This document shows positions 12,456 through 38,420 of a stretch of 64,000 nt of DNA, piece after piece (position 1 is the first letter of the stretch; every line of letters begins with the position of its first letter). Source of the stretch: Roseburia intestinalis L1-82 (GTDB lineage: Bacteria; Bacillota; Clostridia; Lachnospirales; Lachnospiraceae). Both the position numbers and the translations under genes were made by a program. The notes under the pieces are model-generated. The model saw only the letters and a list, made by a program, of their open reading frames with translations, made no database searches and was not told the origin of the DNA. Location of the stretch: positions 2,736,001 through 2,800,000 of the forward strand of contig NZ_LR027880.1 in assembly GCF_900537995.1 (NCBI RefSeq). The letters are read 5' to 3'.

Positions 12456-14319
12456 ATCGAGTAGGAGAAAATTTCTCAAAAAATGAGAAATTTTCGACCT
12501 CTCACACCACCGTGCGTACCGTTCGGTACACGGCGGTTCAATCAACTTAACAAGTAACACACCTTTCGGTGTAGTAATCTAACATTGAGACTAATCCAAA
12601 ACGGGTTAGTCTTTCTTTTGTAACGGCTACATTCATGGCACCGCCTTGACAGCAGTGTGCGATTCTCGCACCATTATAAGCCGTTGAGTACGCTAGTTTC
12701 TTATATACCCCTAGCTTTATTAAGTTCTTCGCGCGATTCTGTGGAGTTTTCCAATGTTTCCATATACACATGCGCAATCGAAATCTTATATTTTGGTCGA
12801 GCGTGGCACATAACACCTTCATACTACCTATTTTAAAGTAGTTAATCCATCCTCTGATAAGCTGATTAATTTTCTCAACCTTATAGCTGTTACTAACGCC
12901 CCAGCTACGACAAGTGAGTTCTTTCATTCGCCTCTTGAACTTTGCTACTGATTTTGCATGTGGTTTTGCCTTAAATTGGTGTGCTCTTGAATCAAAGTAG
13001 AATCCGAAACCCAGATATTTCAATCCACTTGGTCTATCTACTTCGCTCTTGGTCATGTTAACTTTGAGTCCTAGTTTCTCTTCAATAAAACGAGATATGT
13101 TTCTCATTACACGATTGGCAGACATTTCGCTTCCGACCATAATTATACAGTCATCCGCATATCGTACGAAGTTAAGCCCTCGCTTCTCCATTTCCTTATC
13201 AAGTTCATTTAGCATGATATTTGCCAATAGTGGCGAGAGGTTTCCTCCTTGTGGTGTACCCACAATAGAATCCTCGTATTCGTTGTCAATCATGATTCCA
13301 CTAACAAGATATTTTCTAATAATAGAGATGACATCTCCATCTTTAATAGTTCTACCTATGATAGTCATAAGCTTGTCATGATTCACTGTGTCAAAGAACT
13401 TTTCCAAGTCAATATCTACAATCCAGTCATTGCCATCATTCATCATGTCTAGTGCTGTTAGGATTGCCTGTTGTGCACATCTATTAGGTCTAAATCCATA
13501 ACTGTGGTCATGAAACTGTTCCTCATAGATTGGCGTTAAAACCTGTGCAATGGCTTGTTGTATAAATCTGTCTGTTACTGTTGGTACTCCTAGGTTTCTG
13601 ACACCACCATCTGGTTTTGGTATCTCCACTCTTCGTACTGGTTGAGGTTTATATTTTCTTGCCCTCAACTGTTCCTTGATGTTTTCGCCGTTCTTTGCAA
13701 GATGTTCTTTGAGTTCTGTGTACTTCATTCCGTCCACTCCTTCTGCACCTTTGTTTCGTACGACTTGCAGATATGCCCTGTTGAGGTTATCGCTAGATAA
13801 TATCTGCTCCATTAGACTACTTGTGTCCATGCGTTCTTTCCTTTCCGCCTCGCTTGATTTGACCATCCTTTACCCGATTGGTTACAGCAGATGTTGTCAT
13901 TTCTGCAATACGAGACATACTCAAACTTATTGATTGTTCACCCCTTTGCTCCATCTCCATTACAGAGACTTCTTCACTACTATGGGCTCGGCTGACTTCT
14001 CACAGTTCGTTGTTACTAGGCTAATGGAACCCCTATGAGACCTCCACGCTTAAGGTGCACGCTCTTTCTCTCCATATATCCGCCACATTTACTCTGCTAC
14101 TACAAAAGTGATAGTTATTAGACTTCGTTGCTTTTAGCCAACTTATCTCTCGCAGCCTAGCCTTATATGTGATTTCTGTACGTCAGACCAGAGATTTGCT
14201 TACAGCTTCCTTCAGATTCCACCTCACGATAGACACCCTTGCTGTTCAGCTATACACTTCCCACTATCTGGGCGTGTTCGGGACTTTCACCCGTTAGAGC
14301 GCGCCCATGGCGCGCAAAC
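12456..14319 (-). mobile_element. Group II intron, class C-like, with intact maturase
   Basis: On the minus strand the intron begins near 14315-14319 (GCGCGCCATGGGCGCGC, then GGTGAAAGTCCCGAACACG). Ribozyme domains I-IV fill about 450 bp before the maturase gene. A domain V-like hairpin follows the gene (12500-12541, ACCGCCGTGTACC), then a domain VI hairpin with GAAAATTTCTC arms. It ends ...TCCTACTCGAT at about 12456. The 5' end lies directly behind the recombinase terminator, the target type of class C introns. Exact ends are estimated to a few bases. Confidence 0.85.
12547..13830 (-). CDS. ltrA: Group II intron reverse transcriptase/maturase, MarathonRT relative
   Basis: 427 residues from the ATG at 13830 (AAAGGAAAGAACGC before it); the frame reaches an ATG at 13866 with a poorer RBS. 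The RT domain is complete: PKPDGGVRNLGVP, DIDLEKFFDTVNHD, GTPQGGNLSPLLANI and the catalytic FVRYADDC. There is no endonuclease domain, as in class C introns. From about residue 1 to 330 the text is nearly the same as the A. rectalis maturase known as MarathonRT, as I remember it; the last ~100 residues (thumb and DNA-binding end) differ more. It should splice the intron and reverse-transcribe it into new sites. Confidence 0.93.
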   Translation of the reverse strand: MDTSSLMEQILSSDNLNRAYLQVVRNKGAEGVDGMKYTELKEHLAKNGENIKEQLRARKYKPQPVRRVEIPKPDGGVRNLGVPTVTDRFIQQAIAQVLTPIYEEQFHDHSYGFRPNRCAQQAILTALDMMNDGNDWIVDIDLEKFFDTVNHDKLMTIIGRTIKDGDVISIIRKYLVSGIMIDNEYEDSIVGTPQGGNLSPLLANIMLNELDKEMEKRGLNFVRYADDCIIMVGSEMSANRVMRNISRFIEEKLGLKVNMTKSEVDRPSGLKYLGFGFYFDSRAHQFKAKPHAKSVAKFKRRMKELTCRSWGVSNSYKVEKINQLIRGWINYFKIGSMKVLCATLDQNIRFRLRMCIWKHWKTPQNRAKNLIKLGVYKKLAYSTAYNGARIAHCCQGGAMNVAVTKERLTRFGLVSMLDYYTERCVTC

Positions 14320-27444: not shown

Positions 27445-28278
27445 TCAGACAAATTTTTTTAGGTTATTTTTCCGATATTGTACAGGCGTTTGATACCCTA
27501 AGGAAGAATGTATGCGGTGATGATTATACCAGTTTACATAATCCCATAGTTTTATCTTCAGTTCTTCCTGCGTATGGAATGTTTCATTCCATACAAATTC
27601 TGTTTTTATAATCTTGAACGTAGCTTCTGCCACTGCATTGTCATAAGGACATCCCTTATGGCTCAGGGAGCGTTCCATATGGAACGTTTCTAACAGTTCT
27701 TCAATTGTCTCGTTTTTAAATTCATTTCCACGGTCTGTGTGGAAAATATGGATTTCCGACAGATTTCCGTCTACTTTCATAAATGCCTGTTTTACAAGTT
27801 CTGCTGTTTTATGTTCTCCTGCACTGTATCCAATAATCTCCCTGTTAAAAAGATCAATCAGTACACAAATATAATTCCAGCGGTTTCCTACCCTTACGTA
27901 GGTCAAATCACTTACCACTACATTGCGGTATGGCTGGTTTTGAAATTGTCGGTTCAACACATTCTCTACTTTTGATTCATTACATCTGTCTTTTTGCGGT
28001 TTAAACTGTGCTGTAGTATAGCTTGATACCAGACCTTCCTGTTTCATAATCCGTCCAATCCTGCGTCTTGATACCTGTTTCCCGCAATCAGCCAGTTCTT
28101 TCTTGATCTTTCGTGTACCATAATGGTTCCGGCTTTTTCTAAAAATTTCCTGAATGTCTGCAGTGAGTTCTGATTCATCTTTTTTTGCTGCTGCTTCATA
28201 ATAATAGGTGCTTCTGTTTACCTGTAGGACGCGACACATTGCTGATACAGAGTATTTGTGGGCATTTGCTTTAATCAC
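27445..28278 (-). CDS. IS3-family transposase OrfB, copy 2
   Basis: 277 residues with an intact DDE core ([26 protein letters not shown]). Identical in protein to copies 3 and 4. In the -1 frame relative to its OrfA, as expected for programmed frameshifting. Confidence 0.92.
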   Translation of the reverse strand: MIKANAHKYSVSAMCRVLQVNRSTYYYEAAAKKDESELTADIQEIFRKSRNHYGTRKIKKELADCGKQVSRRRIGRIMKQEGLVSSYTTAQFKPQKDRCNESKVENVLNRQFQNQPYRNVVVSDLTYVRVGNRWNYICVLIDLFNREIIGYSAGEHKTAELVKQAFMKVDGNLSEIHIFHTDRGNEFKNETIEELLETFHMERSLSHKGCPYDNAVAEATFKIIKTEFVWNETFHTQEELKIKLWDYVNWYNHHRIHSSLGYQTPVQYRKNNLKKFV

Positions 28279-28280
28279 AT

Positions 28281-28577
28281 TTACTTTCGTCCTAAGATCA
28301 GCGCCGCTTGTTTTAAAATATCATTTTCCATTCTTAACTGCTGGTTTTCTTTCCGAAGCCGGATCAGTTCTTCCTGCTCCGGAGTCCGGTTATCTTTTTC
28401 ATGGAAAGAACCGGAATTGGATGCCTGCTTTACCCACTTGTCAAACAGGGAAGTAGCAATGTCATATTCACGGCAGATATCACATCTGCGTTTGCCGGAA
28501 CGATATAGTTCCACCAGTTGCTGTTTAAATTCATCTGTATATTTGCGAGGTTTTCGTCGTTGTTTTTGTTCGGTCAT
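28281..28577 (-). CDS. IS3-family transposase OrfA, copy 2
   Basis: 98 residues, the same HTH protein as in the other copies (RKPRKYTDEFKQQLVELY). The RBS is GAAGGAGCACTCTTT before the ATG. Confidence 0.92.
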   Translation of the reverse strand: MTEQKQRRKPRKYTDEFKQQLVELYRSGKRRCDICREYDIATSLFDKWVKQASNSGSFHEKDNRTPEQEELIRLRKENQQLRMENDILKQAALILGRK

Positions 28578-30726: not shown

Positions 30727-31560
30727 TCAGACAAATTTTTTTAGGTTATTTTTCCGATATTGTACAGGCGTTTGATACCCTAAGGAAGAATGTATGCGGT
30801 GATGATTATACCAGTTTACATAATCCCATAGTTTTATCTTCAGTTCTTCCTGCGTATGGAATGTTTCATTCCATACAAATTCTGTTTTTATAATCTTGAA
30901 CGTAGCTTCTGCCACTGCATTGTCATAAGGACATCCCTTATGGCTCAGGGAGCGTTCCATATGGAACGTTTCTAACAGTTCTTCAATTGTCTCGTTTTTA
31001 AATTCATTTCCACGGTCTGTGTGGAAAATATGGATTTCCGACAGATTTCCGTCTACTTTCATAAATGCCTGTTTTACAAGTTCTGCTGTTTTATGTTCTC
31101 CTGCACTGTATCCAATAATCTCCCTGTTAAAAAGATCAATCAGTACACAAATATAATTCCAGCGGTTTCCTACCCTTACGTAGGTCAAATCACTTACCAC
31201 TACATTGCGGTATGGCTGGTTTTGAAATTGTCGGTTCAACACATTCTCTACTTTTGATTCATTACATCTGTCTTTTTGCGGTTTAAACTGTGCTGTAGTA
31301 TAGCTTGATACCAGACCTTCCTGTTTCATAATCCGTCCAATCCTGCGTCTTGATACCTGTTTCCCGCAATCAGCCAGTTCTTTCTTGATCTTTCGTGTAC
31401 CATAATGGTTCCGGCTTTTTCTAAAAATTTCCTGAATGTCTGCAGTGAGTTCTGATTCATCTTTTTTTGCTGCTGCTTCATAATAATAGGTGCTTCTGTT
31501 TACCTGTAGGACGCGACACATTGCTGATACAGAGTATTTGTGGGCATTTGCTTTAATCAC
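30727..31560 (-). CDS. IS3-family transposase OrfB, copy 3
   Basis: 277 residues with an intact DDE triad, identical to copies 2 and 4 in protein. Likely active. Confidence 0.92.
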   Translation of the reverse strand: MIKANAHKYSVSAMCRVLQVNRSTYYYEAAAKKDESELTADIQEIFRKSRNHYGTRKIKKELADCGKQVSRRRIGRIMKQEGLVSSYTTAQFKPQKDRCNESKVENVLNRQFQNQPYRNVVVSDLTYVRVGNRWNYICVLIDLFNREIIGYSAGEHKTAELVKQAFMKVDGNLSEIHIFHTDRGNEFKNETIEELLETFHMERSLSHKGCPYDNAVAEATFKIIKTEFVWNETFHTQEELKIKLWDYVNWYNHHRIHSSLGYQTPVQYRKNNLKKFV

Positions 31561-31562
31561 AT

Positions 31563-31859
31563 TTACTTTCGTCCTAAGATCAGCGCCGCTTGTTTTAAAA
31601 TATCATTTTCCATTCTTAACTGCTGGTTTTCTTTCCGAAGCCGGATCAGTTCTTCCTGCTCCGGAGTCCGGTTATCTTTTTCATGGAAAGAACCGGAATT
31701 GGATGCCTGCTTTACCCACTTGTCAAACAGGGAAGTAGCAATGTCATATTCACGGCAGATATCACATCTGCGTTTGCCGGAACGATATAGTTCCACCAGT
31801 TGCTGTTTAAATTCATCTGTATATTTGCGAGGTTTTCGTCGTTGTTTTTGTTCGGTCAT
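31563..31859 (-). CDS. IS3-family transposase OrfA, copy 3
   Basis: 98-residue HTH protein identical to the other copies, in the +1 frame relative to OrfB. Confidence 0.92.
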   Translation of the reverse strand: MTEQKQRRKPRKYTDEFKQQLVELYRSGKRRCDICREYDIATSLFDKWVKQASNSGSFHEKDNRTPEQEELIRLRKENQQLRMENDILKQAALILGRK

Positions 31860-33758
31860 AAAGAGTGCTCCTTCGTGTATTTATTATAGATTATATGACC
31901 TTAAAAAATCTGTCCAGTTAATTGTAACCTATCCATGTCTTTCCGGCTTCATCCAGTCCCTGTGCCTCCGCTGCCGCTGTGGTTGCACCGCCGTAACTAA
32001 TATCCACACCTGCATCCTTCCATGAATAATAGGCTAAGGAGCTGCAGTCATAATAGTTACCGCTATCTCTTAAATCTTGACTATAAGGAAAGCCAACTCT
32101 GTGAAGTGCATAGGAGCAGACTGTTTTCTGCCTGCTGTCTGTAATTCCACTAAGGATGGCATTGATTTCATCCTCAGTCATGGAGCTTACTCCCGGACTT
32201 CCGCCTCCGCCGCCACTTCCGCTTCCGGCATATCCAAGCTGTCCCATAAACTCCGGACTCATGATCTGCTCAAGCATTTCCACCTGATCAGAATTAAATC
32301 CATAGACCGAAATCATATCTCTGTACGATTTCAGTGTGACATTCACATACAGAACCGACTTCGTGACAGTAGTTACATTACCGTCTGCATCTGTTTCTTC
32401 CACATCCTTTGTTCCTGTGCTTGTGGTGTATGAACACATATCATTTACTACTGCCTGCAGCCAGCCTTTTGAAATGTCATTCATGACTGTTGCAGTATCT
32501 CCGATACCATGCTTGACCATATAGACTGCCATGATGTCATAGTAATTGCTTGGGTTTTCTTCCATACCTTCATAATCCACATATACAAGCTCTCCAAGGT
32601 CATATCCGGTATGCTCATTCACTTTCGTATTCACATCCCGGTTAAACTCCTGCACATAAGCACTCGTTACTGTCTGCACGGTATCTCCTGATTCAAGTGG
32701 TGGCAGAAATAAAGCAAATGGAGAATTGTAAAGGATTGCTATCACCGCTATAACCGGAACCGCAATCATGGCAACTACAAGAACAAGTAATAAAAGCACC
32801 AATCCGATAATCGGTGCAGCTGCCTTTACCCAGGTAATCGCTTTTCGCACAATCAGATCCTTTACCAGTTTTGCCACGCTGTCTGTCTGATTCTCCTGTG
32901 CTTTCATCTTATCCAGAAAGAATTTTATCTTCCTGCTCCGGTTGGTCATCTTTTCATCCTTGACCTCTATGGACACACCTGCAGCATATCCGGCTGCCAT
33001 GCCGATTGCAGTACCAACTCCCGGTGCAACCGCTGTTCCTGCCGCGGTAGCAGCTGCCTTTGTCGCAGTTTTTGTTGCAACCTTGGCAGTTGTCTTGGCT
33101 GTTTCTTTTGCCGTCTCTTTAGCTACCGTCTTGGCTGTATCTTTGACAGCTTTCTTTGCTGTCTTTTTTGCCAGCTTCTTTCCTGCCTCTACCTTCTTGA
33201 TACGCTTCTTTGCCTCGGCTGCCGCCTTTTTCCTGAAAAGTGCTGCCCCCTTGGAAGCAGTTCCGGTAACAGGTTGGCTTGCTTCATATGCAAGATATGC
33301 TGCCTGCGATACCTCATACCCGCCTTCCACCTGCTCCGTTACTGCCCCGGCTGCAAGTACACCTGTTCTTCCTGCAATGTGAAGATTGGTGTTCTTGGTC
33401 TTGATGGAAGTTCCTGACTCTCTGATGTTACGCTTAAACCTAGAAAGACCTTTATCCTTAGCCTCCGATTGATGAATGGTACTCTTTCTATAAGTACGCT
33501 TTCCACCAGCACTTTTCTGAAGCATTAATTTTGCAGATGCTTTTTTATCCATTTCATTGGCTTTAGCATCATGCACTTTCGGACCTCTCTCTACTGTATA
33601 GATGTTGCTGCCTTTAATCTTGGCACCCTTTGGCTCGTGGGCATGAATCTTGGCTTTCTCCTTGGTGTGAATGACCATAGGCTTATCATCCACCTTTTTT
33701 ATCTTCAATGTTCTCACCTTCTTTCTACATCCATTACCCAAAAATGGGTAAAAAAATA

Positions 33759-33790
33759 GCCATCTGGATGATTAGTCCAAATGGCTTATG
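33759..33790 (-). terminator. Terminator of the PBECR4-type gene
   Basis: On the minus strand AGCCATTTGGA pairs with TCCAGATGGCT across a short loop, followed by ATTTTTTTACCC. It isolates the cargo gene from the NlpC/P60 gene downstream. Confidence 0.85.
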
Positions 33791-33797
33791 TAAAAAT

Positions 33798-34367
33798 CTA
33801 TTTAATTCTATTGTAAAGAACTGTCTCTATTCTGGTTGATAAATCAATCTTTTTCTTATAAAGAAGTGTCCACGATGCTTGATTTTTTGAATAATCCATC
33901 TTTTCCTCTGGAAAAAATGAACGACAGAAATAATTATCTCCTTCATCATTAGATAAAAACAAAAATAGATTCCTGCTCTCCACGTTGTTTTCCATAAGAT
34001 AATCAGCCTCAATCATTGAATACATATTTGCTTTCTTATTATACTTAAACACAGTATCATTACTATCAATCATTTGTTCAAGCAATGGCAGGAAATGAAC
34101 TCTTTGCTCTATCTTATTATAAAAATCTGATGACTCTATTTTTTCAATTGTAATTGTTCCATCTGCTATCTCATCAAATACTCTGCCTCTGTCTCGGCTC
34201 AATTCAGGTCTGTCTACCAGATATTGTAATCCCATAAGATGAAAACAATCTTTTTTATCAAATGAAATTCTTAATGTAACTGAAACACCTTTTCTCCCTA
34301 GTACAAGCTCATATTCGGTTGATAATAGCGGAATAAATGCATTTATGCAATCTAAAACATTCCTCAT
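33798..34367 (-). CDS. PBECR4-like domain protein (BECR-fold RNase candidate)
   Basis: 189 residues, start with TGGAGAACTGTA before the ATG. The text FDKKDCFHLMGLQYLVDRPEL, IEQRVHFLPLLEQMIDS, NLFLFLSNDEGD-NYFCRSFFPEEK and SWTLLYKKKI is what I recall for PBECR4 (phage Barnase-EndoU-ColicinE5/D-RelE-like nuclease 4) proteins. The conserved His, Arg and Ser/Thr residues could form a ribonuclease site. It is more AT-rich than the conjugation genes around it and has its own promoter, leader RNA and terminator. It looks like an independent cargo cassette; toxin or host-interaction function is inferred. Confidence 0.7.
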   Translation of the reverse strand: MRNVLDCINAFIPLLSTEYELVLGRKGVSVTLRISFDKKDCFHLMGLQYLVDRPELSRDRGRVFDEIADGTITIEKIESSDFYNKIEQRVHFLPLLEQMIDSNDTVFKYNKKANMYSMIEADYLMENNVESRNLFLFLSNDEGDNYFCRSFFPEEKMDYSKNQASWTLLYKKKIDLSTRIETVLYNRIK

Positions 34368-34394
34368 TACAGTTCTCCACTACATCCTTAGATT

Positions 34395-34557
34395 AAGAAA
34401 GGCTCTGCATAAGCAGAGCCCTTCTAACATTTTCTTTCGAGGATTAACCTCTAGCCAGATTGTGGTAAATGTCAAACCCTTATAAAGCTCATAAGGCACT
34501 GCTCTCTGGCACAACACCTTACTTTGCCGCTTGGCAGACACTCAAGTTGCCTGTCTT
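34395..34557 (-). ncRNA. Structured leader RNA ending in an intrinsic terminator, upstream of PBECR4-type gene
   Basis: From the predicted start near 34557 the minus strand reads about 160 nt with several short helices: TGCC-aagc-GGCA, CCTTAT-(7)-ATAAGG nested inside CCAGA...TCTGG, GAGG-ttaat-CCTC, and finally the terminator arms GGGCTCTGC/GCAGAGCCT (34401-34420) with TTTCTTAAT. No long ORF. The nuclease-like gene begins 33 nt after the terminator. It could be an attenuator, a riboswitch or the RNA antitoxin of a type III-like pair; I do not recognise a known RNA family, and I see no tandem repeats. Confidence 0.6.
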
Positions 34558-34564
34558 TAATATT

Positions 34565-34593
34565 ATATTACCTGTCATATGAAAATATGTCAA
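34565..34593 (-). promoter_or_regulatory. Near-consensus promoter of the leader RNA/PBECR4 cassette
   Basis: TTGACA (34588-34593 on the minus strand), 17-bp spacer and TAATAT (34565-34570). One of the best sigma-A promoters in the ICE, and internal to the conjugation gene block. Confidence 0.8.
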
Positions 34594-35511
34594 TCCAAAA
34601 TTCATGACTTCATAAAGAATTAACATTTTTCATTTGCATGCTTTTTCATCTCAATTATCTCGTGAATGTTGGTATTGTACAGCTTATACAAATCCGTATC
34701 CTTACTTATCTGATTATCAAACGGAATCACCACAGAACCACACTTGATAAGTCCCATTCCAGATGCAGTATTGGTTACAAATCTAAGCTGTGCCTCTGAT
34801 ACTCCGATAACCTCCGCCATCTTGGAACTGTCTGTATTCGCCTGCTTTAAAAGTGCCACAAACTCAGAGTTTGCAAGCATTGTGGTTGCTGTGTAATTCT
34901 GCAACAGATCGACTACATTTTGCGTGATACCGGTACAAAGACCTCCCTGTTTTCTCACTTTCTTCCAGAGCTGCTGCAGATATTTTGCAGAATACTCGGA
35001 ATTAAGTAAGACATGGAACTCATCAATATAGAGCCATGTTGCCTTGCCTCTCTTACCATTCTCAACAATCCTGTTCTGAATGGACTCCATCATGACAAGC
35101 ATTGTGATAGGACTAAGCTCTGTACCTAAGTCCCTGATGCCATATACTGTGAATCTGTTATCCACATCCACATTTGTCTGATGGTTGAAGATGTTAAGTG
35201 AACCATTTACAAAAAGCTCCAATGACAATGCAATGTCCTTTGCCTCGTCCTCCGGCTGTGCCATAAGGATATCGTAAAAGTCACTCATTACAGGGATATA
35301 CTTCTCTTTGCTCCTTGCAATGTCGATATACAGCTTTCTCACACAGCGGTCAATGATTGACTTCTGTCTTGAATTTAAACTGTCTCCGATACACTGCTCA
35401 CAAAGTCCAAGCATAAACTCGCCTTTTTCTCTTACTGGATAGGTTACAATTAACTGGACAGATTTTTTAAGGTCATATAATCTATAATAAATACACGAAG
35501 GAGCACTCTTT

Positions 35512-35808
35512 ATGACCGAACAAAAACAACGACGAAAACCTCGCAAATATACAGATGAATTTAAACAGCAACTGGTGGAACTATATCGTTCCGGCAAACG
35601 CAGATGTGATATCTGCCGTGAATATGACATTGCTACTTCCCTGTTTGACAAGTGGGTAAAGCAGGCATCCAATTCCGGTTCTTTCCATGAAAAAGATAAC
35701 CGGACTCCGGAGCAGGAAGAACTGATCCGGCTTCGGAAAGAAAACCAGCAGTTAAGAATGGAAAATGATATTTTAAAACAAGCGGCGCTGATCTTAGGAC
35801 GAAAGTAA
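35512..35808 (+). CDS. IS3-family transposase OrfA, copy 4
   Basis: 98-residue HTH protein identical to the other copies; RBS GAAGGAGCACTCTTT. The slippery T_TTA_AAA heptamer lies at 35772-35778. Confidence 0.92.
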   Translation: MTEQKQRRKPRKYTDEFKQQLVELYRSGKRRCDICREYDIATSLFDKWVKQASNSGSFHEKDNRTPEQEELIRLRKENQQLRMENDILKQAALILGRK

Positions 35809-35810
35809 AT

Positions 35811-36644
35811 GTGATTAAAGCAAATGCCCACAAATACTCTGTATCAGCAATGTGTCGCGTCCTACAGGTAAACAGAAGCACCTATTATTATGAAGCAGCA
35901 GCAAAAAAAGATGAATCAGAACTCACTGCAGACATTCAGGAAATTTTTAGAAAAAGCCGGAACCATTATGGTACACGAAAGATCAAGAAAGAACTGGCTG
36001 ATTGCGGGAAACAGGTATCAAGACGCAGGATTGGACGGATTATGAAACAGGAAGGTCTGGTATCAAGCTATACTACAGCACAGTTTAAACCGCAAAAAGA
36101 CAGATGTAATGAATCAAAAGTAGAGAATGTGTTGAACCGACAATTTCAAAACCAGCCATACCGCAATGTAGTGGTAAGTGATTTGACCTACGTAAGGGTA
36201 GGAAACCGCTGGAATTATATTTGTGTACTGATTGATCTTTTTAACAGGGAGATTATTGGATACAGTGCAGGAGAACATAAAACAGCAGAACTTGTAAAAC
36301 AGGCATTTATGAAAGTAGACGGAAATCTGTCGGAAATCCATATTTTCCACACAGACCGTGGAAATGAATTTAAAAACGAGACAATTGAAGAACTGTTAGA
36401 AACGTTCCATATGGAACGCTCCCTGAGCCATAAGGGATGTCCTTATGACAATGCAGTGGCAGAAGCTACGTTCAAGATTATAAAAACAGAATTTGTATGG
36501 AATGAAACATTCCATACGCAGGAAGAACTGAAGATAAAACTATGGGATTATGTAAACTGGTATAATCATCACCGCATACATTCTTCCTTAGGGTATCAAA
36601 CGCCTGTACAATATCGGAAAAATAACCTAAAAAAATTTGTCTGA
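35811..36644 (+). CDS. IS3-family transposase OrfB, copy 4
   Basis: 277 residues, DDE core intact, -1 frame relative to OrfA. Likely active. Confidence 0.92.
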   Translation: MIKANAHKYSVSAMCRVLQVNRSTYYYEAAAKKDESELTADIQEIFRKSRNHYGTRKIKKELADCGKQVSRRRIGRIMKQEGLVSSYTTAQFKPQKDRCNESKVENVLNRQFQNQPYRNVVVSDLTYVRVGNRWNYICVLIDLFNREIIGYSAGEHKTAELVKQAFMKVDGNLSEIHIFHTDRGNEFKNETIEELLETFHMERSLSHKGCPYDNAVAEATFKIIKTEFVWNETFHTQEELKIKLWDYVNWYNHHRIHSSLGYQTPVQYRKNNLKKFV

Positions 36645-38420
36645 AAAAGTGTTGACAATCCATACCATTCCCTTTGAATCATTCGGGTCAAGGCTCCACA
36701 CATCCATCTCCAGCGGATTCACATAGTTATCCGTGTAAGTAGACATATTTACTACAGTTCCGCCATAAGTCTCAGCAATATCAAAGTATTCGTTCATTGG
36801 ATCTATGACGATTATCTCATCATCACCCGACAAGAATACGCTGCCCATCTCCATCTTGCAGAAGAAGGATTTACCGGAACCCGGCACACCAAATACAAAG
36901 CCATTTCCATTAATGAGCTTCTTTCTGTTGCCGATATTCACATTCTTGCTGATCTGGTTGATGCCATAATAGTTTCCTGTGCTGTCATTTAATTCCTGCA
37001 CATTAAATGGCATAAGCACCGCAAGTGACTGGGTAAGAAGTGTACGCATTGTCTCCACCTGTCTTACACCAATCGGAAGTGCTGTGTTGAGTGCTTCCCT
37101 CTGCTTTAAGTAGTGTGTATCAATCGTGCAACTGTTACGCTTTCCGATAGTCTCCACAGTCTCACATACACTCTCAAGCTCCTTCTTGCTTTCTGCCATA
37201 AGAATAATGGTTACTCCCACAAAGAAAAGGCACTGGTCATTCTCACGGACATCATCCATGATTTCCTCAATCTCCTTTTTCTCCGTTCTCTTGGCATATG
37301 AGATTTCCGTAGAAAAATCGTTATTCTTATTACGGACTCTCTGCTGCTTAATGATATCCGACTCAATACCAAGGTATTTCTTCTGAAGCACCTTTGTGGT
37401 CAGATCCTTTGGTACGGGCACCACATCAATGCTCGTGATGGAATGAACCGGAAGGGAAGTAATCTCATTGATGAATCTGTCTGACAAACTGCTCGGATAC
37501 TTTTTGATAAAAAGTGCCTTGCAGAATTTACTCTCATCCTCAAAATGGTCCGGGAAATATTTCACCATTCCATTACATAGATCATTTCTAAAATCTGGCC
37601 CGACCTTCTTAGCCTTTTTGATATCAAAATCAAAACTGCCCTCATCTCCAAGATGATAATAGTCATAGAGCACTTTCAGTCTCTCATTTCCATTAAGTGG
37701 TACAATGTCTGCACCAAGCTCAATGAAAGCCTTGTGTATCGTTGCCTCAAGGGTTGCAAACTGTGCCTTTGCCTCCTCAAAGTTCTTTCTCTCAATCGTG
37801 ATCGTCAGGTATCTCTCCTGCTCAATCCCCTGTCTGCCCTCAATAATCTTCTCCTCAATGATGTCATTATAGATTCTTCTGTAATTATTGAAGCCATCAT
37901 TTTTCTCAGCAATCAGAACCTTATCACGGAGGTCATCCATATTTTTGTTCTTATTGTTGATCGTAATCTTATAATTACAGTCCAGCGAATTTAAGAACTT
38001 GCAGTATCTTTCAAATATGCCAATCTGCTCATCCTCCGTTGCTGTCGTGTAATTGATGTCCTGAAAGCGGTAGCATTTGGAATACTTATTTTTGCTTACT
38101 TCAAAAATGCCGTTTTCAGCTACCGCCATAATCTCTATGGTTTCCTGAATGGATTTAGGTGTCTTATACAAAGGCTCACTCGCCTTCTTTAATAACTTAA
38201 ATCCGTCTGTAAATAAACCCATGTCTCTAACCTCGCTTTCTTTTTTATCATGAATGCTTGCATTCATGCTGCGAAATGCACATCATGCAATGCATGATTT
38301 TCCTCTGTGCATTTCTGCAATCCTGCGGAGCATCTGCTCTGATTTTTCAGAGCACTGAAGCCCGCCGGGAACTTCACCCTGCGGGCTGTGTTCCCGACCT
38401 TTCGGTCAGATACTTTTTAT

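Follow-up and report, generated by a model that had tools for sequence, protein, structure and literature searches.

A drum RNA paired with a predicted PBECR4 ribonuclease: a probable type III-like toxin-antitoxin module on mobile elements

Organisation of the cassette

The locus described here lies in a 64,000-nt stretch of the Roseburia intestinalis L1-82 genome (GCF_900537995.1, contig NZ_LR027880.1, positions 2,736,001-2,800,000), which we call the window and whose numbering is used for all its coordinates. On the minus strand a compact cassette comprises, in this order, a promoter, a folded RNA without open reading frames (ORFs), an intrinsic terminator, an ORF of the PBECR4 family and a second terminator. 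It stands between a TraG/VirB4-like conjugation ATPase gene with a TraG P-loop domain and the next gene of an apparent conjugation operon. The original prediction, made from the sequence alone, had read this arrangement as a possible type III-like toxin-antitoxin pair. The layout appears to be that of such loci, with a non-coding RNA (ncRNA) preceded by its own putative promoter and a terminator ahead of the candidate toxin gene.

All of the parts named in that prediction were recovered. The sigma-70-type promoter (TTGACA-17-TAATAT; 34565..34593, minus strand) is expected to start the RNA near 34558. As a bare count, promoter-like sites do not exceed chance (6 versus 9.3 expected), and the promoter call was accepted because homologous leaders share it, an exact TATAAT being present at most 75 nt upstream of the RNA in 61 of 72 (10.3% in shuffles). 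The terminator in the interval between RNA and gene (about 34393..34424, minus strand) recurs in 69 of 72 homologous loci, compared with 9.7% in shuffles. The PBECR4 gene (33798..34367, minus strand) encodes a predicted ribonuclease (RNase) of 189 amino acids (aa), the proposed toxin, and is followed by the terminator that closes the cassette (33758..33786, minus strand).

The drum RNA and its fold

The window leader belongs to the Rfam family drum (RF02958; 34422..34532, minus strand), scoring 91.9 bits where the gathering score is 43, and is the proposed RNA antitoxin. The family, reportedly first described by Weinberg in 2017, carries the type sRNA (small RNA) in Rfam. The folding z-score of the window RNA is -2.72, and no tandem repeats were found in it, as had been foreseen. 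Membership in a known riboswitch class, which the original prediction had singled out for checking, was not borne out, as none of the riboswitch families matches the window leader at Rfam gathering scores. A kink-turn has been predicted in drum RNA (PMC11974997, in the part of that paper accessible to us), and in the accessible portions of the literature found, drum figures only as an example of structure.

Of the 72 drum leaders, 11 were left out as near copies and the other 61 were aligned (A4). This alignment supports 36 base pairs, 34 of which change on both sides, with 89.5% of cells paired versus 32-50% when partners are slid by one to three columns; these totals lean towards the proposed structure because the pairs were picked on the same alignment. 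Covariation of the leader across homologous PBECR4 loci, the check that the original prediction had proposed, is present, with helices 5 and 7 of the drawn structure weak (53% and 61%). Two elements are added to the Rfam structure. The first is a 5' hairpin outside the Rfam model (P0; 34533..34556, minus strand), in which 7 of 7 pairs covary, changing on both sides, and 91.1% of cells are paired. The second is a pseudoknot (PK1) between the apical loop of P2 (34506..34510, minus strand) and a downstream strand (34454..34458, minus strand), in which all five pairs covary and 96% of cells pair. Helix P3, which is part of the Rfam structure (34470..34472 with 34427..34429, minus strand), covaries at 3/3 pairs and is paired in 96.7% of cells; the invariant GGU/ACC hairpin that it would cross is without covariation support.

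The pseudoknot was checked on 34 RNAs outside A4, aligned to our own model (R2), which omits the pseudoknot pairs, in a scan limited to the P2 region. The same pseudoknot came out on top, pairing in 155 of 160 cells. Four of the 34 closely duplicate A4 rows; in the remaining 30, which are all distinct from one another, 135 of 140 cells are paired and 45 changes affect both sides. The fold is conserved, and its covariation points to a pseudoknotted RNA of the kind that type III toxin-antitoxin systems have.

Linkage of drum and PBECR4

Drum and PBECR4 were each searched for in a first sample of 391 genomes of the same class, which yielded 24 drum matches in 19 genomes and 32 PBECR4 places in 29. 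Thirteen of the 24 drums are followed on their own strand by a PBECR4 match, 54-71 nt beyond the end of the drum, including one pair (G181) in which the drum scores just below the gathering score and the gene is truncated. Two others (L014, L015), read by eye, are followed by a terminator and then an N-terminal PBECR4 remnant, one (L026) lies at a contig edge, and eight are solitary. Several of the solitary drums (L020 and L022-L025, in G016 and G239), all from one genus, are nearly alike and stand behind the same 3' coding end, resembling a dispersed RNA gene.

A protein-only scan of named genomes with a drum-clade protein pattern gave 85 confirmed loci, of which 80 were kept; this set is biased towards the drum clade because its query came from there, a bias from which the Pfam-based samples are free. 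At Rfam gathering scores, 78 drums were found in 73 of the 80 loci, and in 72 of the 80 the drum 3' end lies 45-195 nt upstream of the protein match. Six more (L120, L124, L125, L127, L134 and L135) have a drum-like RNA upstream according to R2 (E <= 8e-14), below the Rfam threshold. In L098 the drum is displaced by an insert of about 1.5 kb, and L131 has a broken nuclease and no drum. The linkage is near-obligate, and with drum or drum-like RNA in 78 of 80 loci, chance association or hitchhiking was ruled out. Extra drum copies occur beside PBECR4 in four loci (L074, L075, L086, L096), the second drum of L086 preceding a second, disrupted PBECR4.

By an ORF rule, 68 of these 80 nucleases are intact, 11 are broken or partial and one runs off its contig. 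A drum or drum-like RNA accompanies every one of the 68 intact genes (62 by gathering score, five by R2, and L098 with its displaced drum). Homologous genes lacking the leader, which the original prediction had named as refuting it, are therefore absent from the intact genes of this set. By comparison, 10 of the 11 broken nucleases still have the RNA (nine by gathering score, one by R2), though some breaks may be assembly errors, as many of the 80 loci are metagenome assemblies. Such one-sided decay is what would be expected if loss of the RNA alone does harm.

The PBECR4 protein

PBECR4 (PF18813) is the sole Pfam family above its cut-off in the window protein (120.2 bits versus 27). The AlphaFold2 model has a mean predicted local distance difference test score (pLDDT) of 92.0 and a predicted template modelling score (pTM) of 0.85; fold searches of the PDB returned no clear match among solved structures, the weak ones including BrnT, CdiA-CT and RelE among unrelated folds. 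The predicted active site of PBECR proteins is described, in the accessible text of PMC5512222, as a His in a helix together with a Ser or Thr in a C-terminal strand. In the model, H43 lies in helix 38-45 and S150 in strand 145-153, matching that description, and in alignment A1 a His is present at H43 in 21 of 21 sequences and a Ser or Thr at S150 in 20 of 21 (column read by eye). These residues fit a BECR-type enzyme, and the protein is a predicted RNase.

Other identities were also considered for the protein. For homology to ToxN or CptN, there was no sequence match to their solved chains in the PDB, and the fold comparison was weak. A known defence gene was rejected since the window protein has no PADLOC match. 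Among PHROGs it matches only families without an assigned function, and NCBIfam gave no match.

Class B and further leader types

PBECR4 genes without drum were preceded by an ORF-less leader in 17 of 18 cases viewed by eye, L037 being the exception. One set of these leaders, class B, is represented at the second PBECR4 locus of the window genome (L003; G000, 373243-373739), where the nuclease is truncated (141-aa frame, profile positions 1-98 of 188). No Rfam family matched class-B leaders in the eight loci scanned. An alignment of 15 (A5) supports 22 pairs, 16 of them changing on both sides, with 91.2% of cells paired versus 23-42% when slid, and a stem joining the two units of the RNA pairs in 15/15 sequences, with 4/4 pairs covarying. 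The two unit tails, identified by motif, are 49-67 nt apart in 18 of the 20 class-B loci scanned, and one relative (L158) has a single unit. The units have diverged in most sequences, since Tandem Repeats Finder (TRF), even with its threshold set low, detects unit arrays in just 3 of 14, with 2.1-2.2 copies each (L138, period 54, 98% match; L036, period 53, 85%; L146, period 51, 82%).

At E <= 1e-3, a model built from A5 (R1) recovered 21 of 59 PBECR4 loci; its own training rows account for 15 of the 21. Applied to the 391 genomes, it found 19 places in 17 genomes: seven immediately ahead of a PBECR4 gene (training rows in six cases), one before an N-terminal remnant (L175) and 11 without a visible PBECR4, two of which score weakly. 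Solitary class-B RNAs with promoter and terminator, and with no nuclease seen, were observed in several genomes of one genus (L177-L181).

A second Pfam sample covered 299 genomes of the family, 57 of them with PBECR4. The best-scoring 28 new loci (L136-L163) are all accounted for, with upstream drum in 15 and class B in 13 (nine of them R1 training rows). R1 or R2 recognises 15 of 38 lower-scoring places at E < 1e-3. The remaining 23 include about 15 with different ORF-less leaders ending in a terminator, as judged by eye, four truncated copies with no leader seen (L226, L228, L239, L247) and one doubtful PBECR4 (L253), fragments and contig ends making up the balance. By eye, divergent PBECR4 genes are preceded by three or more further leader types, namely one with GGTCGG-GAGACC repeats (L224, L231, L233, L236, L049), one with GTTGGGCTG (L222, L223, L225, L035) and one with GTCGTTCGG (L245, L248, L249, L251), R2 weakly matching L248, L249 and L251.

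Protein phylogeny, hosts and mobile context

A tree of 64 proteins, inferred by a quick method, was labelled with four RNA types: drum, class B, a group C that resembles drum weakly, and a mixed category of other leaders. The labels require three changes, which is the minimum and was equalled in none of 200 shuffles, and a single change separates drum from class B (branch support 94 and 86, respectively); the placement of four long-branched rows with other leaders is unsure. RNA class tracks protein clade. Three Treponema proteins, together with their drums, nest among the drum proteins of Bacillota, and RNA and gene thus appear to travel jointly.

Relatives are present in 21 plasmid records of PLSDB, 19 of them from Enterococcus. 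Four were fetched, and in each a drum-like RNA precedes the gene (E 4e-18 to 2e-20), two of them sharing one leader. In one plasmid locus (L215, pEFM9-2) the PBECR4 module is followed by an annotated AbiH family gene, a possible defence neighbourhood. A class-B relative occurs in one phage record, that of Erysipelothrix phage phi1605 (two places reported, one viewed), with class-B RNA upstream (E 2e-16). This phage locus and the four plasmid loci are laid out like the window cassette. The drum-clade alignment gave 25 pattern matches in viral contigs, none of which was confirmed, and Tblastn of phage records with the window protein and L050 returned no match.

The insertion site was compared with 10 loci of related integrative and conjugative elements (ICEs). 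In four (L190, L197, L198, L200), 29-117 nt separate the end of the ATPase gene (window 34652 or nearby) from the point where the following gene begins (window about 33725), the stretch 33726..34651 being absent. Other genes occupy the cassette's spot in L191 and L195, and in L192, L193, L196 and L199 the next gene was unmatched within the fetched stretch. Given these empty and variably filled sites, the cassette is about 0.9 kb of cargo in a variable ICE spot, which agrees with the self-contained cassette within a conjugation operon of the original prediction.

Elsewhere in the window, one insertion sequence (IS) is present in three copies (27445-28577, 30727-31859 and 35512-36644), whose ORFs (277 and 98 aa) are identical. 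By eye, the third lies inside the TraG/VirB4-like gene (frames 34620-35831 and 36627-38267), and the window ICE may for that reason have lost transfer. Group II intron RNA domains (RF02001, RF01998) were found at 13941-14233 on the minus strand.

Interpretation and alternative explanations

We consider it probable that the cassette is a two-component RNA-RNase module that functions as type III toxin-antitoxin systems do, one in which the toxin and the RNA partners are both new. Since drum and the nuclease are nearly always together, the RNA is suggested to restrain the enzyme, and by analogy with AbiF-RCd22 of Clostridioides difficile drum would be expected to bind and silence PBECR4. The single promoter would yield a short, presumably abundant RNA consisting of the 5' hairpin, drum and the terminator, and rare read-through of that terminator would yield a little nuclease mRNA. 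The pseudoknotted drum may then bind the PBECR4 RNase and keep it inactive. Were the RNA supply to stop, on loss of the element or on a shutdown of transcription, for instance by a phage, the RNA would decay faster than the protein and the released RNase would cut RNA. The mobile element could thereby be stabilised, with cell defence or the exclusion of competitors as possible further effects.

The pair proposed in the original prediction is thus supported by linkage across the 80 loci, and the two-unit RNA of sister class B comes closer to classical type III systems than had been thought. One observation weighs against the one-sided decay. In L037, from the Pfam sample, the reading frame is free of stops over profile positions 16-187, with the N-terminal end missing, and no leader was found by eye or by R2; together with L131, L226, L228, L239 and L247, it is one of six truncated PBECR4 copies without a leader. 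Separately, and against the class-B fold, its count of pair types does not exceed that of shuffles (363 of 500 as high) and its helix 3 is paired in just 69%.

An unlikely alternative is that the RNA acts solely in cis, as an attenuator or riboswitch-like leader governing how far transcription runs on into the nuclease gene. The intrinsic terminator that separates the two in 69 of 72 loci suits this explanation, as does the attenuation that the AbiF RNA also exerts (PMC12373285, in its accessible part). At least five bases of the terminator arm are paired upstream in the minimum free energy (MFE) fold of 40 of 61 sequences, but mean arm pairing (4.48 nt) equals that of shuffled arms, which leaves this test neutral on attenuation, and of the 70 top column pairs just scattered singles touch the terminator, without forming a helix. 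Attenuation alone also accounts poorly for solitary RNAs with their own promoter and terminator, for the repeated units of the class-B array and for one-sided decay, in which the RNA survives breakage of the gene.

Less likely again is an active ribonucleoprotein in which drum activates or guides PBECR4, as in Cas13-like nucleases. Near-obligate pairing, an elaborate fold and the absence of intact nucleases without RNA (0/68) would suit a cofactor equally well. However, inspection of the drum alignment by eye revealed no variable guide stretch, the RNA is kept in 10 of 11 broken cases, where an activator would be needless, and the repeated class-B units recall ToxI-type antitoxins. Very improbable is that the nuclease cuts its own leader for self-regulation and hits other targets free of any restraint by RNA. 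The A-rich GAAAGAAAA close to the 3' end of drum resembles ToxN cleavage sites, which are A-rich (PMC8860590, accessible text), as does the AGAAAAA that separates class-B units, but solitary RNAs and one-sided loss are left unexplained.

The RNA-restrained toxin can be placed in a wider and more tentative picture, to which we give somewhat less than even chances, in which PBECR4 is a superfamily of RNA-neutralised RNases apart from ToxN and AbiF, with several unlike partners (drum, class B and the leaders recognised by eye), and in which orphan drum and class-B RNAs, dispersed as solitary genes, immunise their hosts against incoming elements (anti-addiction). A function is in any case proposed here for the structured RNA family drum, which would gain that function if the superfamily view is true, and the proposal would extend the RNA-based toxin-antitoxin systems by one toxin family and by two or more classes of RNA. 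The occurrence of the module on plasmids, ICEs and one phage, across Bacillota and Treponema, suggests a possible role in plasmid stability and phage defence. The leaders also form a naturally occurring set of RNAs that diverge together with a single RNase family.

Comparison with known systems

That the system was undescribed held in part: the RNA was already the Rfam family drum, but the literature searched yielded no mention of it being paired with PBECR4. A full-text search (titles and parts of abstracts), covering few subscription papers and no bioRxiv, found neither drum nor PBECR4 tied to an RNA antitoxin, so an earlier description is possible. In the accessible text of PMC5512222, PBECR domains are RNases of polyvalent or solo proteins, and an RNA partner is not named there. 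The window PBECR4 shares with that description the family name and the His and Ser/Thr residues, and differs from the polyvalent context in standing alone behind an RNA.

Like ToxIN, CptIN and TenpIN, the drum-PBECR4 pair places a pseudoknotted RNA ahead of an RNase gene, here a predicted one, with a terminator between them. Drum differs from type III antitoxins in being one large unit without tandem repeats, whereas the two units of class B, 49-67 nt apart, are near in size to those of CptIN and TenpIN, which are 45 and 50 nt long and repeated 2.1 times (as cited in the accessible part of PMC12373285).

The closest experimentally tested parallel to drum-PBECR4 is AbiF. Its protein, presumably of the Abi_2 type, belongs to another family than PBECR4, and its RNA is abiF in Rfam and not drum. 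AbiF-RCd22 (Rfam abiF, RF03085), from the C. difficile prophage phi027, otherwise resembles the window cassette in having one promoter, an ncRNA, a Rho-independent terminator and a toxin gene on a mobile element; there, according to the accessible text of PMC12373285, the toxin gene is co-transcribed by read-through and the RNA both attenuates and represses toxicity.
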